From assembly GCA_020832705.1 (NCBI GenBank), contig JAFIEE010000007.1, positions 1 through 41,449 of the forward strand: a DNA stretch of 41,449 nucleotides. Direction: 5' to 3'. The DNA is from Paracoccaceae bacterium. GTDB taxonomy: Bacteria; Pseudomonadota; Alphaproteobacteria; Rhodobacterales; Rhodobacteraceae. The notes beneath the pieces were generated by a model, which saw nothing but the letters and a program-made list of their open reading frames with translations, did not search any database and had not been told where the DNA came from. This document shows, piece by piece, positions 4,109 through 25,081 of this stretch; positions within the stretch are counted from its first letter, which is position 1; every line of letters starts with the position of its first letter. A program made the position numbers and the translations under genes.

Positions 4109-6703
4109 ATGGTGCGGGCGCTGACAGTCGCGCGGCGTTGGCAGCTTGGTGCCGTGGTGGCGCTGGCGGTCGCGCTGGTGGGGCTGCTGGCGCTGGGGCT
4201 GGACCTGCCCGCGACGCACCCCTGGCTGGCTGCGCTGGTGCTGGCGCTGTTCGCGCTCAACGCGCTGTGGCTGGCGGGCGCGGCGGTGACGGCGGTGCTG
4301 GGGGTGCGGCCCCTGCCTGCGTCTGTCTTGCACGCACATGTCGGGGCCGAGGCCGAGGCCGCACCGGGCGGGCGCACCGCGATCCTGTGGCTGATCTGCG
4401 GCGAGCCTGTGGCGCCGGTCGCGGCGCGGGTGCGCGCCATGTTGGCGGGACTGGCGCGGACCGGGCAGGCGGGCGCGTGCGACATCTTCATTCTGTCGGA
4501 CACGCAGGGCGCGGCGGCACGCGCCGCCGAAGCGGACGCCTTCGCCGCGCTGGGCGCCCATGTGCATTACCGCAACCGCGCCTGCCCCGAAGGCCGCAAG
4601 CCCGGCAATCTGGCCGACTGGATGGCGCGGAACGGGGGCGGGTATGACACGGTCCTGCTGCTTGATGCCGATAGCGGTTTCTGCGCCGAACGCCTGCGCG
4701 GCTTGCGCGCGTGGATGGCTGCCGACCCGCGTCTGGGGCTGGTGCAATGCGCGATCCGCCTGCGTCCCGGCGGCTCGCGGCTGGCGGCGATGCAGCGGCT
4801 CTCGGTGCGGCTGTGCGGGGCGGGGTTCGCGCGCGGGCTGGCGCGGCTTTCGGGGGATGCGGGGAATTTCTGGGGTCACAACGCGCTGATCCGCACCCGC
4901 GCGCTGGCTGCGGTCACGCCGCTGCCGGCGTTGTCCGGGCGCGCGCCCTGGGGCGGGCCGGTGCTGAGCCATGACTTCATCGAGGCCGCCGCCCTGCGTC
5001 GCGCGGGCTGGAAGGTGGTGATCGACGCCGACGCACGCGGCAGTTTCGAGGATGCGCCCGAAACCGTGGCCGAGTTCCTGCGCCGGGACCGGCGCTGGGC
5101 GCAGGGCAACCTGCAGCACCTGCGGCTGGTTGGGGCGAAGGGCTGGCATCCGGCCAGCAGGGTGCACATGCTGGCGGGGATACAGAGCTATCTGTCCGCG
5201 CCGGTCTGGCTGGCGCTGGTGGTGCTGTTCGGCTCGGGCGCGGTGCATGCCACGGCGGCGGCGGCGGTGCCGCTCGCGGCGACGCTGGCGCTCCTGCTGG
5301 TGCCCAAGGCCGCAGGCTGGGCGGACTGGCGCGGGCGGGGCCGGATGACCGCCGCGCGCCGCCGCATCCTGCGCCGCGCCTTCGGGGCCGAGGTCGCGCT
5401 GACAACGCTGTTTGCGCCGCTGGCCATGGTGCGGCGCACCGGCTTCGTGGCCGCCGTTCTGGCGGGGCGCGACTGCGGCTGGCGGCCGGCGGGGGCTGGT
5501 GGACCAGCGGCACTGGCATCGGCTCGGGCACCGGCACGGGCACGGGCACGGGCATTGGCACCGGCACGGGCACCCGGCCGGGCCGAGGCGGTGGCCGGGG
5601 GGGCGATCCTGCTGGCGGTGACCGGACCGCAGATGGCGCTTGGCGCGGGGCTCAGCGCTGCCGTGCTGGCCGCCGCGATGGTGGCGCCGGTGATCGCGCC
5701 CCTGCTGGCCGCGCCCTGGCTGGTGCGCGGGTTCGACCGCCCGCTCGGCCGCCACATCGACCGCCCCATCGACCGCCTCATCGACCGCCCCTGTGACCGG
5801 GCACCCGCGGGGCCGAACCGCGTGGCCGCCTATTACGACGCCAGCACCCGGCGGTTCCTGCGCCTTGGCGGCAGCGGGGCGGCGCTGGCCATTCACCGCC
5901 CGCTCTGGGCCGAGGGCGTGGCCGACCTGCCCGCCGCTTCGGACCATGTCAACGCGCTGGTGGCCGAAGCCGCCGAGGCCGCGCTGGGCCGCCCGCCCGC
6001 GCAGGTCTGCGATCTGGGGTGCGGGGTGGGGGGGACGCTGTTCCATCTGGCCGCGCGCTGGCCCGAGGCCGCGCTGACCGGCGTGACCCTGAGCGCCGAG
6101 CAGGTCCGCATCGGGCGCGCGCAGGCGCAGGCGCGGGGGCTGGCCGAACGCGTGCGCGTGGTGCGCTCCGATTTCACCCATCCGCCGACCCTGCCGCAGG
6201 CCGATCTGGTCATCGCCATCGAAAGCCATGTGCATGCAGCGAGCGCCGGGGCGTTCCTGCAAGCGGCGCGCGCGCATCTGCGCCCCGGCGGGGTGCTGGT
6301 GGTGGTGGATGACATGCTGGCGGTGCCGGACGCCGCGTTGACCGCGCGCGGGCGGCGGCTGCTCGATGCCTTTCGCCGGGGCTGGCGGCTGGGGCATGTC
6401 ACGCCTGCCGCCGGCTTGATCGCGGCGGCGCGGGCCGAGGGCTTTGCGCCTGCGGCAGAGGCCGACCTGAGCCGGTATCTGCGCCTGAACCGGCTGCGCG
6501 ACCGGGCGTTGCGGCTGGCGGGGCCGCTGGCCGATGCGCTGGGGCTGGGCCGCGTGCCGCTGTTCGCCAACATGATCGGCGGCAATGCGCTGACCGAGGC
6601 GCATCGCGCCGGTTTGCTGCGCTATCAGATGGTGGTGCTGCGCGACCGGGCCGGGAGGGTGGCGGACCCTGCCGAGGGACGGGCGGGGAAGCAGGCGGCA
6701 TGA
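4109..6703 (+). CDS. OpgH/MdoH-like glucan glucosyltransferase fused to a C-terminal SAM-dependent methyltransferase
   Basis: N-terminal half: CPEGRKPGNLADWM..DTVLLLDADS..NFWGHNALIR..LSHDFIEAAALRRAGWKV..DRRWAQGNLQHLRL..SYLSAPVW (MdoH signature blocks). C-terminal: VCDLGCGVGGTLFHLA..TGVTLSAEQ..RPGGVLVVVDDM (class I methyltransferase). One uninterrupted 864-aa ORF. Confidence 0.88.
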   Translation: MVRALTVARRWQLGAVVALAVALVGLLALGLDLPATHPWLAALVLALFALNALWLAGAAVTAVLGVRPLPASVLHAHVGAEAEAAPGGRTAILWLICGEPVAPVAARVRAMLAGLARTGQAGACDIFILSDTQGAAARAAEADAFAALGAHVHYRNRACPEGRKPGNLADWMARNGGGYDTVLLLDADSGFCAERLRGLRAWMAADPRLGLVQCAIRLRPGGSRLAAMQRLSVRLCGAGFARGLARLSGDAGNFWGHNALIRTRALAAVTPLPALSGRAPWGGPVLSHDFIEAAALRRAGWKVVIDADARGSFEDAPETVAEFLRRDRRWAQGNLQHLRLVGAKGWHPASRVHMLAGIQSYLSAPVWLALVVLFGSGAVHATAAAAVPLAATLALLLVPKAAGWADWRGRGRMTAARRRILRRAFGAEVALTTLFAPLAMVRRTGFVAAVLAGRDCGWRPAGAGGPAALASARAPARARARALAPARAPGRAEAVAGGAILLAVTGPQMALGAGLSAAVLAAAMVAPVIAPLLAAPWLVRGFDRPLGRHIDRPIDRLIDRPCDRAPAGPNRVAAYYDASTRRFLRLGGSGAALAIHRPLWAEGVADLPAASDHVNALVAEAAEAALGRPPAQVCDLGCGVGGTLFHLAARWPEAALTGVTLSAEQVRIGRAQAQARGLAERVRVVRSDFTHPPTLPQADLVIAIESHVHAASAGAFLQAARAHLRPGGVLVVVDDMLAVPDAALTARGRRLLDAFRRGWRLGHVTPAAGLIAAARAEGFAPAAEADLSRYLRLNRLRDRALRLAGPLADALGLGRVPLFANMIGGNALTEAHRAGLLRYQMVVLRDRAGRVADPAEGRAGKQAA
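5509..5574 (+). repeat. Hexanucleotide tandem repeat (GGCACG-like, 11 imperfect units) inside the OpgH-methyltransferase ORF
   Basis: ggcact ggcatc ggctcg ggcacc ggcacg ggcacg ggcacg ggcatt ggcacc ggcacg ggcacc; encodes ALASARAPARARARALAPARAP. Confidence 0.9.
5732..5803 (+). repeat. 12-bp tandem repeat encoding IDRP-type tetrapeptides at the glucosyltransferase/methyltransferase junction
   Basis: ttcgaccgcccg ctcggccgccac atcgaccgcccc atcgaccgcctc atcgaccgcccc tgtgaccgggca = FDRP LGRH IDRP IDRL IDRP CDRA. Confidence 0.85.
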
Positions 6704-6752
6704 TCCCGGTGTGTCGCTTTCCGGCATCTTCGGGCATGGACGAGGGCAGGAA

Positions 6753-6809
6753 GGAAGCGCCCGCGAAGGGTGCCCACCCACCCACCCCGCACCCTTCGCG
6801 GGCGCTTCC
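6753..6809. other. Perfect 21-bp inverted repeat with a 15-nt C-run loop (G-quadruplex motif on minus strand)
   Basis: GGAAGCGCCCGCGAAGGGTGC (6753-6773) / GCACCCTTCGCGGGCGCTTCC (6789-6809); CCCACCCACCCACCCC at 6773-6788. Confidence 0.95.
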
Positions 6810-6830
6810 GGCGCGCGCGCCGGGGCTGGC

Positions 6831-8405
6831 ATGAGACGCCGGAGCCTGTTGCAGGGCGCCGCCGCGCTGGCGCTTGGCACGCTGCCCGGCGGACCGCTGC
6901 GCGCCGACCCGTCCGGGCTGAGCACGCCCGAGTCCATTGTTGCGGCGGCACGCGCCCGCGCCCGCGCGCCCTACGCCCCGGCCGATGCGGCGCTTGTGCC
7001 CCCGTTCGACGCGCTGACCTATGACAGTCACCGCGCCATCCGCCCGCGCCCCGGTGGTGCGGCACAGATCCCGCTGGGCGGGCCGTTCCGCGCCGATCTG
7101 CTGCCGCCGGGGTGGCTGTTTGCGGACCCGGTGGCGGTGCAACTGCCGGGGCAGGGGGCGCCGGTGCCCTTTGACCCTGCGCATTTCACCTATGATCCGC
7201 GCTATTTCCCCGACGGCGCGCCCGAAAGCGCCGATCCGGCCATGGGCTTTTCCGGCCTGCGCCTGACCGCGCCGTTCAACACGCCGGACCGGCGCGACGA
7301 ACTGGCGGTGTTCCAGGGGGCAAGCTACTTCCGCGCGCTGGCCCATGGCGCGGCCTATGGCCTGTCGGCGCGGGGGCTGGCGCTGGGCACCGGCGGCGCC
7401 GGCCCCGAGGAGTTCCCCGTCACCCGGCACATCACCATCTTCGGCGCCGATGAGGCAGGCGTGCACATGGGCTGCCTGATCGACAGTCCGCGCGCGGCGG
7501 CCGCGCTGATCCTGCGCATTGCGCCGGGGCGCGCAGGCGCGCCGGATACGGTGATGGACTGCGCCCTGCATCTGTTCCCGCGCGACACCATCACGGATGC
7601 GGGGATCGCGCCGCTCACGTCCATGTTCCAGCATGCGGACCTCGGCCCCGGCTTCATCGACGATTTCCGCCCCGCGGTGCATGACAGCGACGTGCTGGTG
7701 ATGGACAATGGCGCCGGGGAACGCTTGTGGCGGCCGCTGACGAACCCCGCGCGGGTGGAGCTTGCGGCCTTTGCCGACGAGAACCCGCGACGCTTCGGCC
7801 TGCTGCAATCGCCCGATGCGTTCGAGCGGTTCCGCGATGCCGAAGGCGCCTATCACCGCCGCCCCTCGGCCATGGTGGAGCCGCTGGGCGACTGGGGCGC
7901 GGGCGCGGTGATGCTGCTGGAAATCCCCACCATCGATGAATACGCCGACAATATCGTCGCCTTCTGGCGCCCGGCGGACCCGTTGCAGCCGGGGCAAGAA
8001 CATCGCTTCGCCTATCGCCTGCGTTGGCAGCCCGCCGGGCTGGATGCGCTGCCCGCAGGCGCACAGGCGCTGCCGCTGCTGCCGGTGCGCAGCGCCTCGG
8101 GGGTGGAGCCGGTGACGCGCGCTGGGCGTCTGTTCGTGATCGATTTCGCGCCCGGCCCGGGGGCTGTGATGCCGGATGCGGATGCCCTGACGCTGGATTT
8201 CGGCGCGCTTGCGGGCGCCGGGATCGAGGGTGCGGCGCTCTACCCGCTGGATGAAGGCACGCTGCGCGCCAGTTTCGTGCTGGTGCCCGAAAGCGCCACC
8301 GACGTGGCGGAGCTGCGCCTGCGCCTGCGCCACCGTGCGGGCGGCGCGCTCGCCGCGCCGGTCTGGATGTTGCGCTGGACGCGGGCGCGCGGGGGCGGGA
8401 TCTAG
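6831..8405 (+). CDS. opgG: Periplasmic glucan biosynthesis protein, MdoG/OpgG-OpgD family
   Basis: MRRRSLLQGAAALALG (Tat-like signal), FDALTYDSHRAIRPRP, PVTRHITIFGADEAGVHMGCLIDSPRAA-type blocks, FRYDPRYF-like region (HFTYDPRYF), AYRLRWQP. Internal ATG at 6831 preferred over ORF start 6711. Confidence 0.82.
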   Translation: MRRRSLLQGAAALALGTLPGGPLRADPSGLSTPESIVAAARARARAPYAPADAALVPPFDALTYDSHRAIRPRPGGAAQIPLGGPFRADLLPPGWLFADPVAVQLPGQGAPVPFDPAHFTYDPRYFPDGAPESADPAMGFSGLRLTAPFNTPDRRDELAVFQGASYFRALAHGAAYGLSARGLALGTGGAGPEEFPVTRHITIFGADEAGVHMGCLIDSPRAAAALILRIAPGRAGAPDTVMDCALHLFPRDTITDAGIAPLTSMFQHADLGPGFIDDFRPAVHDSDVLVMDNGAGERLWRPLTNPARVELAAFADENPRRFGLLQSPDAFERFRDAEGAYHRRPSAMVEPLGDWGAGAVMLLEIPTIDEYADNIVAFWRPADPLQPGQEHRFAYRLRWQPAGLDALPAGAQALPLLPVRSASGVEPVTRAGRLFVIDFAPGPGAVMPDADALTLDFGALAGAGIEGAALYPLDEGTLRASFVLVPESATDVAELRLRLRHRAGGALAAPVWMLRWTRARGGGI

Positions 8406-23146: not shown

Positions 23147-23500
23147 TCAGTGCATGCGCTGGCCTTCGGGCACGTCGCGGTCGGGGGCGATCAGCACAAC
23201 GCGGCCTTCGGCGTCCGAGACGCCCAGCACCAGCACCTCGGAGCGCATGGGCCCGATCTGGCGGGGCGGGAAGTTCACCACCGCCATCACCTGCCGCCCG
23301 ACCAGTGCCGCCGGGTCATAGTGTTCGGTGATCCGGGCCGAGGATTTCCTTTCGCCGATCTCCGGGCCGAAATCGATCCACAGGCGCAGGGCGGGCTTGC
23401 GCGCCTCGGGGAAGGGTTCGGCGCGGGTGATGCGGCCCACGCGGATGTCGACCTGCAGGAAGTCATCGAAACCGATGGTCGCCGCGGGCGTGCCGCTCAT
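23147..23500 (-). CDS. csaA: CsaA-like tRNA-binding-domain protein
   Basis: FLQVDIRVGRITRAEPFPEARKPALRLWIDFG..GPMRSEVLVLGV; 117 aa. Confidence 0.88.
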   Translation of the reverse strand: MSGTPAATIGFDDFLQVDIRVGRITRAEPFPEARKPALRLWIDFGPEIGERKSSARITEHYDPAALVGRQVMAVVNFPPRQIGPMRSEVLVLGVSDAEGRVVLIAPDRDVPEGQRMH

Positions 23501-24306
23501 TGCCCCAGCTCCCGCGAGCGGGCGGCGGCGGCGGCCACCGCGCGGGGCAGGAGTGCGGGAAACCCCGTGTCCCTGTCCATAAGCACCGCCAGCGCGGCGG
23601 CGGTGGTGCCGCCGGGGCTGGTGACATTGACGCGCAACTGTCCGGGGCTGTCATCCGATGCTTCGGCCAGCGCGCCCGCACCGGCGACGGTGGCGCGCGC
23701 CAGTTGCAGGGCCAGGTCGGAGGGCAGGCCCTCGGCCTCGGCGGCCGCCGCCAGCGTTTCGATCAGGTGAAACACATAGGCCGGGCCGGAGCCGGAAACG
23801 GCGGTCACCGCGTCCATCTGCGATTCGTCGTCAAGCCGGACCACCTGACCCACGGCCGAGAGCAGGGTTTCGGCCAGTGCCAGCCCCTCGGCCCCGGCAT
23901 GGGCGTTGCCCACAATGGCGGTGATGCCGCGTCCCACGGCGGCGGGGGTGTTGGGCATGGCGCGCACCAGCGGGGTCTGCGTGCCCAGCGCGGCCGCGAA
24001 GGCGCGCAGTGACGTTCCGGCGGCCACCGAGACAAAGAGCGTGGCGCCATTGCCGAAGCCCTGCAGCGCGGGCAGCGCTTCGCCCATCATCTGCGGCTTG
24101 ACGGCGACCACGACCACCGCCGGGGCCGGGGGAAGTTCGGCGTTCACGTGCACGCCCTGCGCCTGCACCCAGTCCGAAGGCTGCGGGTCGATCACATGCA
24201 CCGCGCCCGGGTCCACGCCGCGCGCCAGCCAGCCCGCCAGCATGGCCGAGCCCATCTTGCCGCACCCCAGCATCACCAGCCCGTCACGGTTGACCCTGTC
24301 CATCAT
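23497..24306 (-). CDS. proC: Pyrroline-5-carboxylate reductase
   Basis: VMLGCGKMGSAMLAGWL, VRAMPNTPAAVGRGITAI, DAVTAVSGSGPAYVFHLIE, VTSPGGTTAAALAVL. Confidence 0.95.
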   Translation of the reverse strand: MMDRVNRDGLVMLGCGKMGSAMLAGWLARGVDPGAVHVIDPQPSDWVQAQGVHVNAELPPAPAVVVVAVKPQMMGEALPALQGFGNGATLFVSVAAGTSLRAFAAALGTQTPLVRAMPNTPAAVGRGITAIVGNAHAGAEGLALAETLLSAVGQVVRLDDESQMDAVTAVSGSGPAYVFHLIETLAAAAEAEGLPSDLALQLARATVAGAGALAEASDDSPGQLRVNVTSPGGTTAAALAVLMDRDTGFPALLPRAVAAAAARSRELGQ

Positions 24307-24577
24307 CGGCTGCCCCTTGCTTCCGTTGCGCGCACCCTAGGACAGGGGCGGCCCCGGCGGAAAGCGGTTTTTCGTGGTGGATGACGGGCGGGGTGAATTC
24401 GTGTTCCAGCCCCGGAGACCCGGGGTAATTCGGTGCGGTCACGGATCGAAGCCTGCAGAAAGCGCCCGCTCAGCGCCCCGCCCGCCCGCCCATGGCGCTT
24501 CGCGGGCGCTGCCCGGCGCGGGGCGCCGGGCGGGCATTGGTGCGGGCGGCGCGCAAGGGGCCGCAGCGCAAGCCCGG

Positions 24578-25081
24578 TCAGGCGCGGCCGAAGGCTTCGG
24601 CGATGGCAACCTTGAGCGCGGTCTCCGCGCCGTGATCGGCCCAGGCGACAAGCTGGAACGCGGGATAGAACCGCTCGCAGGCGTTCACCGCATCCAGCAC
24701 CATCCGCGCGATCTGCGCGCTGCTGGCCATCTGCCCGCCGGTGAGCAGCAGCCCGTAGCGCCAGACCATCAGGCTTTGCTCTTCCCACAGGCTGAACGAC
24801 CCCGACCAGAGCATGTCATTGGCCCGGTTGATGGTGTCGAGCAGGTCACCGCGCCGCGCCGCGGGGGGGTCCATCTCGAACGAGCAGATCAGCCGCAGCG
24901 TTTCATCGCCCGCCGACCAGGCCAGCGTCAGCGAATAGGTGCGCCATTGCCCCTCGACCGCCATGGCGATCTGGTCCTCGCCGACGCGGTCGAACTCCCA
25001 CGCGCGGGTTTCGGCCAGCGATTCGACGATGTCGATGGGATGGATTTCGGCGGTGCTCAGATCGGTATCGATGTATGACAT
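24578..25081 (-). CDS. YbjN-domain protein
   Basis: 167-aa reading from ATG 25081: MSYIDTDLSTAEIHPIDIVESLAETRAWEFDRVGEDQIAMAVEG..LRLICSFEMDPP..NRANDMLWSGSFSLW. Confidence 0.82.
   Translation of the reverse strand: MSYIDTDLSTAEIHPIDIVESLAETRAWEFDRVGEDQIAMAVEGQWRTYSLTLAWSAGDETLRLICSFEMDPPAARRGDLLDTINRANDMLWSGSFSLWEEQSLMVWRYGLLLTGGQMASSAQIARMVLDAVNACERFYPAFQLVAWADHGAETALKVAIAEAFGRA

Follow-up and report, generated by a model that had tools for sequence, protein, structure and literature searches.

Hairpins tipped by a G-quadruplex motif recur between genes of Rhodobacteraceae

The hairpin upstream of opgG and a second copy in the window

The window analysed here is a 41,449-nucleotide stretch of DNA from a Paracoccaceae bacterium. 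It contains a gene for a fusion of a GT2 glycosyltransferase with a SAM methyltransferase (4109–6703, plus strand), followed on the same strand by opgG/mdoG (6831–8405, with its ATG at 6831). The names opgH-MT and opgG, used for these genes in a preliminary description of the DNA, hold in outline, the first standing for the fusion and the second for MdoG/OpgG. The fused gene lies directly upstream of opgG; congeners have the same order, with a 4-nt gene overlap. In the window, a hairpin at 6753–6809 (minus strand) stands between the two genes. The stop codon of the fusion gene is 49 nt ahead of it, the opgG start codon 21 nt past it, and its C-rich strand is in the sense of the fusion gene.

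The perfect 21-bp inverted repeat reported there was confirmed. The arms at 6753–6773 and 6789–6809 are complementary at 21/21 positions, with 15 nt between them. The window holds no other perfect inverted repeat of 21 bp, and the chance expectation is about 1e-5 (70% GC, loops ≤40). The four G3 runs were also found as described, the minus strand reading GGGGTGGGTGGGTGGG at 6788–6773. The 16-mer CCCACCCACCCACCCC, quoted earlier as the interval between the arms, is correct as a sequence but not as an interval, as it includes the final base of the left arm. Because of this overlap, a quadruplex made of all four G3 runs needs one or two apical base pairs to be opened.

The apical motif (6773–6788, minus strand; C-rich on the plus strand) has the four G3 runs and short spacers of a G-quadruplex motif, and its folding was predicted by an energy model. 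For the minus strand, ViennaRNA gave a model energy of −47.9 kcal/mol without quadruplexes and −80.6 with the quadruplex option; in the latter fold the stem is kept, the apical pairs open and the quadruplex forms. The plus strand gained nothing, with a model energy of −46.6 with or without the option. The fold of the main hairpin is favoured on the G-rich (minus) strand. A small second hairpin, CCGGCG(CGCG)CGCCGG (6808–6823, minus strand), which is absent from the preliminary description, adjoins the main one on the 5′ side of its G strand.

A second copy of the element, also missing from that description, was located at 24458–24513 (minus strand) by the own-genome search and the covariance model R1 described below. 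Its loop is GGGCGGGCGGGCGGGG, its stem contains tandem G·A mismatches, and its own small hairpin, GCCCGGCGC(CCC)GCGCCGGGC (24511–24531, minus strand), abuts the main stem. Our gene caller predicted a minus-strand gene on either flank (23497–24306 and 24578–25081), and the G-rich strand of this copy lies in the sense of both.

The element upstream of opgG is present in one congener (G001) and absent from two others (G002 and G003), in which the fusion gene and opgG overlap by ATGA; the contig of a further congener (G004) ends short of the site. Lack of conservation at orthologous intergenic sites, together with no effect of deletion on opgG expression, had been proposed as evidence against a role of the hairpin, and the empty sites in G002 and G003 go half way towards it. 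Presence in G001 and absence in G002 and G003 indicate a gain or a loss of the opg copy inside the genus. The 127-bp stretch that G002 and G003 do not have (6704–6830), whether by insertion or by loss, carries GGCATGA at both borders (6697–6703 and 6828–6834). This heptamer is a possible target duplication, judged from one comparison of empty and filled sites; most of its sequence is dictated by the stop codon and the start codon.

A dispersed repeat in the soda-lake genus

Searching the organism's own genome with 131 bases returned about 40 similar places. R1, a covariance model built from 31 own-genome copies, matched about 100 places in the same genome at E≤0.001, including 24458–24513, and scored the hairpin at 6753–6809 as the genome's top copy (77.8 bits). 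The genome search that the preliminary description had suggested thus uncovered about 100 related copies of which it gave no account. Across all five genomes of the genus, which are soda-lake relatives of Natronohydrobacter/Rhabdonatronobacter, R1 found 100, 75, 90, 15 and 20 matches, and it found almost none in other genera. In a scan of GTDB genomes, the matches listed were all from Rhodobacteraceae, mostly MAGs with soda-lake labels, together with Natronohydrobacter and Rhabdonatronobacter sediminivivens. An ionic or osmotic regulator specific to opg, as had been suggested, is not supported by these data: copies of the repeat are dispersed over the genome, and two congeners have none at the opg site, so we reject such a regulator as a general explanation.

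The unit that spread in the soda-lake genus, to about 100 copies per genome at most, is a two-hairpin version, in which a smaller hairpin abuts the main one on the 5′ side of the G strand. In two genomes, 28/36 and 35/44 copies have a small hairpin on this side, compared with 7/36 and 4/44 that have one on the opposite side. Of the 31 genus copies in alignment A1, 27 retain the G3 runs, with T (45), C (23) or A (1) as single-nucleotide spacers. Past the G-strand stem, the genus copies have a short T run of 2–4 nt (T 0.92/0.58/0.31 and 0.80/0.34/0.25).

Between copies, the sequence of the small hairpin is nearly all different (e.g. L029, L049, L217–L256) while its arms are still complementary. 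Loops of 4 nt are common in it (CCTG, CTTG, GCCA), and it turns over faster than the main stem. Some soda-lake loci (L011, L222, L226, L235) hold two elements about 110–420 bp apart and in opposite directions; in G002, such loci sometimes pair one genus-type with one family-type element (see below). About a quarter of the own-genome matches lie at or near a contig end (position 1 of C51, C70, C110, C139, C164 and C220; the ends of C97, C157, C170 and C267 of G000). From this clustering, the repeat, or the quadruplex hairpin, seems to break metagenome assembly. In another genus, one genome (G253) has eight genuine genus-type copies, most of them within about 40 kb of a single contig (C258, 30302–72000), through either horizontal transfer or a misbinned contig.

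Loop, strand and position in other genera

In other genera, the weak R1 matches are hairpins that share the loop but have unrelated stems. A pattern search for GGGGTGGGYGGGTGGG found it in 38/298 Rhodobacteraceae genomes, and outside the genus a reversed control pattern was much rarer (e.g. 11 versus 1 and 9 versus 1 in the richest genomes). The search pattern selected the loop of these places but not their stems. The motif forms the tip of a hairpin (stem score ≥10) at 80 of the 83 distinct places outside the genus, compared with 18 of 4,980 positions drawn at random from the same DNA. The stems are unrelated in sequence, yet complementary. Stem sequence turns over completely while complementarity persists. 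With the G3 runs kept within the genus and the same loop tipping hairpins in many other genera, the earlier reading of a quadruplex within a hairpin gains support.

A second model, R2, was built from 68 family elements, using rows with at least 12/15 Watson–Crick pairs. It had matches in G090 (43), G259 (25), G022 (25), G261 (22) and G117 (22), and none in several other Rhodobacteraceae genera. Presence throughout Alphaproteobacteria was rejected, as 289 other sampled genomes, three of them Rhodobacteraceae, gave no match. Since many Rhodobacteraceae genera lack the element, it is not essential. At the 3′ end of betB, which allowed an unbiased test of the loop in 30 genera, most genera have no hairpin at all; this showed gain and loss of the element, not drift of the loop. 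The class can thus be described as a GC-rich hairpin of 14–29 bp with free stem sequence and the tip GGG-N-GGG-N-GGG-N-GGG, situated between Rhodobacteraceae genes. We consider its anatomy and distribution to be firmly established.

Elements were placed relative to genes with a home-made caller trained on the element loci. Of the 78 family elements that could be placed, none is within a gene. The G strand is antisense to tandem genes in 44 cases and sense in 8, while 23 elements have convergent and 3 have divergent neighbours; background gene pairs, from sampled 20-kb stretches of two carriers, were 343 tandem, 69 convergent and 73 divergent. On the 3′ side of the G strand, a stop codon falls at −10 to +20 nt in 57/67 cases, with elements typically 0–20 nt beyond the stop, and the C-rich strand is usually in the mRNA sense of the gene whose stop adjoins the element. 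The same junctions recur: in 19 pairs of loci, the members of which belong to different genera, both flanking genes are the same. Examples are betB–betA in four genera and M20 peptidase–arginase (domain calls were made for ten shared neighbours).

The G strand also has a consistent direction along the chromosome. All 43 matches in G090 lie on one strand per contig (minus on C1 and C7; plus on C8, C9 and C10). On the 5.56-Mb chromosome of G259, minus-strand matches occupy 0.30–2.15 Mb and plus-strand matches 2.97–4.65 Mb, with two exceptions. With leading and lagging strands read from sampled GC skew only, the G-rich strand of the family set is on the negative-skew (lagging) strand in 75 cases versus 5 (p=4e-17). 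For the genus copies in two genomes the counts are 62 versus 16, so some break the polarity. Convergent gene pairs are neutral as to gene direction, and between them the family set still shows 21 versus 2; the view that gene orientation alone causes the polarity was therefore rejected. The same 20-kb stretches contained 11 ordinary quadruplex motifs, all of them on the opposite strand (11:0 versus 0:5), and a published survey reports that bacterial quadruplex motifs tend to the leading strand (PMC12581993). As the element polarity is opposite both to the skew and to these motifs, composition cannot produce it, and a by-product of GC skew was rejected. The class thus runs opposite to the surveyed trend, with its motif always at a hairpin tip and at gene ends.

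Covariation and mismatches bear on which strand folds. Covariation in the family set was 1.028 versus 0.211 when shuffled, a value inflated by preselection of the rows for pairing; for the genus copies, which were not selected on their stems, it was 0.327 versus 0.117. At the M20 peptidase–arginase junction, 12 of the 15 pairs have changed on both sides among six genera. The non-Watson–Crick pairs of the family set, which come from related copies and so are not all independent events, read GT rather than AC (53 versus 8), AG rather than CT (32 versus 5) and GG rather than CC (21 versus 5; altogether 106 versus 18). The pairs in excess are those that a folded G-rich strand tolerates. Family stems are more stable on the G strand in 50 cases and on the C strand in 8 (p=1.6e-8). 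The genus copies have 20 GU pairs versus 0 AC, and about half of them have a tandem G·A mismatch at a position where the window copy at 6753–6809 has Watson–Crick pairs. This bias further supports the quadruplex-in-hairpin reading. Mismatches of the two types numbered 61:5 in tandem antisense elements versus 24:12 in convergent ones (Fisher p=0.002), a difference that is not significant when counted per element (p=0.12).

Possible function and relation to known elements

As the most likely function, we tentatively propose a one-way element acting against antisense, head-on transcription into gene 3′ ends. Such an element would fit because the G strand is the strand that folds, is antisense to the gene with the adjoining stop codon, corresponds to the sense of head-on RNA and occurs at junctions that are normally co-transcribed. 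Sense transcription, co-directional with replication, would yield C-rich RNA that forms no quadruplex and pairs more poorly within operons, and the polymerase would pass. Antisense transcription, head-on to replication, would make G-rich RNA (or expose G-strand DNA) able to form the hairpin and quadruplex, and the folded G strand would halt or release RNA polymerase just before it entered the co-directional gene from its 3′ end. Where two genes converge, such an element would terminate the transcript of the head-on one. The T run of the genus copies would help such a one-way stop; elsewhere, where there is no U-tract, the stop would depend on Rho or on a stall induced by the quadruplex. The acting form of the G strand could be DNA instead of RNA.

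The elements share with Rho-independent terminators a GC-rich hairpin near a stop codon and, in the genus copies, a T run of 2–4 nt on the G-strand side. They differ from them in that loop and strand are conserved, in that they occur inside likely operons, and in that no U-tract was found on either side of the family-set elements outside the genus. A canonical intrinsic terminator is therefore not indicated there, which is the main weakness of the one-way reading. The second copy in the window, which lies in the sense of its genes, and the genus copies that break polarity count against it as well. With still less assurance, the whole family may be regarded as one-way nucleic-acid valves, with loop, strand and position fixed, the stem free and the orientation set against replication, so that antisense head-on transcription would be stopped and sense transcription would pass.

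The main rival, which we consider doubtful, holds that the orientation is merely tolerated. The element would be a self-maintaining quasi-palindrome without a direct role, its arms kept alike by template switching during replication. It would survive only at sites where its G strand does not serve as the lagging-strand template and is not the RNA-like strand of an active gene, since elsewhere the quadruplex hairpin would cause fork stalling or R-loops, or would itself be deleted. Both orientation biases would be accounted for at once, and template switching would yield paired changes without selection. Observations in Escherichia coli agree with this account: a (G3T)8 repeat mutated far more readily with its G strand as the non-template strand, and hairpins on the lagging template raised deletions 20–1000 fold (PMC7023247). 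In the same work, however, short G3T repeats showed little leading/lagging bias (PMC7023247). Mere tolerance also does not account for the quadruplex loop being retained with the hairpin across many genera, nor for the closeness to stop codons and the recurrence at the same gene junctions in 19 locus pairs.

It is unlikely that the elements act as DNA in the manner of REP/BIME sequences, as gene-3′-end palindromes that bind a topoisomerase or nucleoid protein and relieve supercoiling between convergent genes. The REP/BIME of enterobacteria and pseudomonads are likewise short palindromes with many dispersed copies, intergenic, at gene 3′ ends and often arranged as paired hairpins. High copy number, two-hairpin units and the frequency of genus copies between convergent genes (47/78, versus 69/485 background gene pairs) speak for such a role. 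In contrast to REP/BIME, the present elements have a conserved quadruplex loop, stems without common sequence outside the genus and a strong replication polarity; to our knowledge, neither the polarity nor the quadruplex tip is a feature of REP. The REP-associated Y1 (RAYT) transposase (PF01797) was found neither in the own genome (G000) nor in the complete congener G002, which has about 90 copies, and REP borne by RAYT was rejected on this ground. In G003, with 15 copies, PF01797 had one match at the edge of the cut-off.

A role in the sense mRNA, where an intercistronic hairpin would stabilise the transcript as at puf, is in our view distinctly unlikely. The elements are near stop codons, have the C-rich strand in sense and often lie in likely operons (betB–betA, rpoA–rplQ, rnc–era), and the Rhodobacter puf intercistronic hairpin, between operon genes in the same family, is a precedent (Klug 1987, cited in PMC6238624). 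The puf hairpin differs in its loop, its folding-strand preference and its replication polarity. The earlier proposal that the stem stabilises the upstream mRNA or attenuates opgG through the sense (C-rich) strand is weakened, because the poorer mismatches fall in the sense RNA and the orientation tracks replication even between convergent genes. Moreover, a stem 0–6 nt off the stop codon is inside the footprint of the terminating ribosome, and a U-tract is absent. A block to sense transcription by the G-rich template, folding as DNA and tuning downstream genes, is very unlikely: in 67/78 placed elements the abutting gene has the G strand as its template, and the G strand is also the favoured folding strand, but such a block does not explain polarity that tracks replication between convergent genes, and a C-rich transcript was found to form no quadruplex (PMC7023247).

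Several other known systems were compared. Like the elements, KOPS and other replication-polar octamers are G-rich and polarised along replichores. KOPS, GGGNAGGG, is an 8-mer without a hairpin and is located on the leading strand, whereas the elements lie on the negative-skew strand (75 versus 5). A MITE or IS derivative implies one sequence family for all copies, which is true within the genus and false across Rhodobacteraceae. A known RNA family was rejected, as Rfam gave nothing above the gathering score in the window and no relevant match to E=1 in five loci, and a plasmid-borne repeat was rejected as PLSDB gave no match. The nasT promoter of Paracoccus denitrificans, of the same order, also contains an intergenic G-quadruplex (PMC5123632). 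It consists of GGGAGCGGGACGGGGGCCGGG, with longer loops, and is described as lying 150 nt upstream of a gene; the accessible part of that report mentions neither a hairpin nor a repeat (PMC5123632).

Taken alone, the genus repeat is REP-like. We know of no kind of element that resembles the family-wide class, with loop, strand, position and polarity fixed and the stem free, and searches of open-access papers yielded no description of quadruplex-tipped hairpins as a class. Conservatively, we describe the class as intergenic palindromic elements of a new variety. With tens of elements per genome, it offers a natural set for the study of quadruplex function, transcription–replication conflict and antisense control.

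In several genera, elements also lie between genes of the choline/glycine-betaine (bet) operon (L268, L271, L275, L278, L296, L308, L325), sometimes two per operon; bet names beyond betA and betB are by sequence recognition. Given this occurrence, an osmotic link still deserves attention. The elements are found equally at rpoA–rplQ, rnc–era and coaBC–dut, which argues for a general role.
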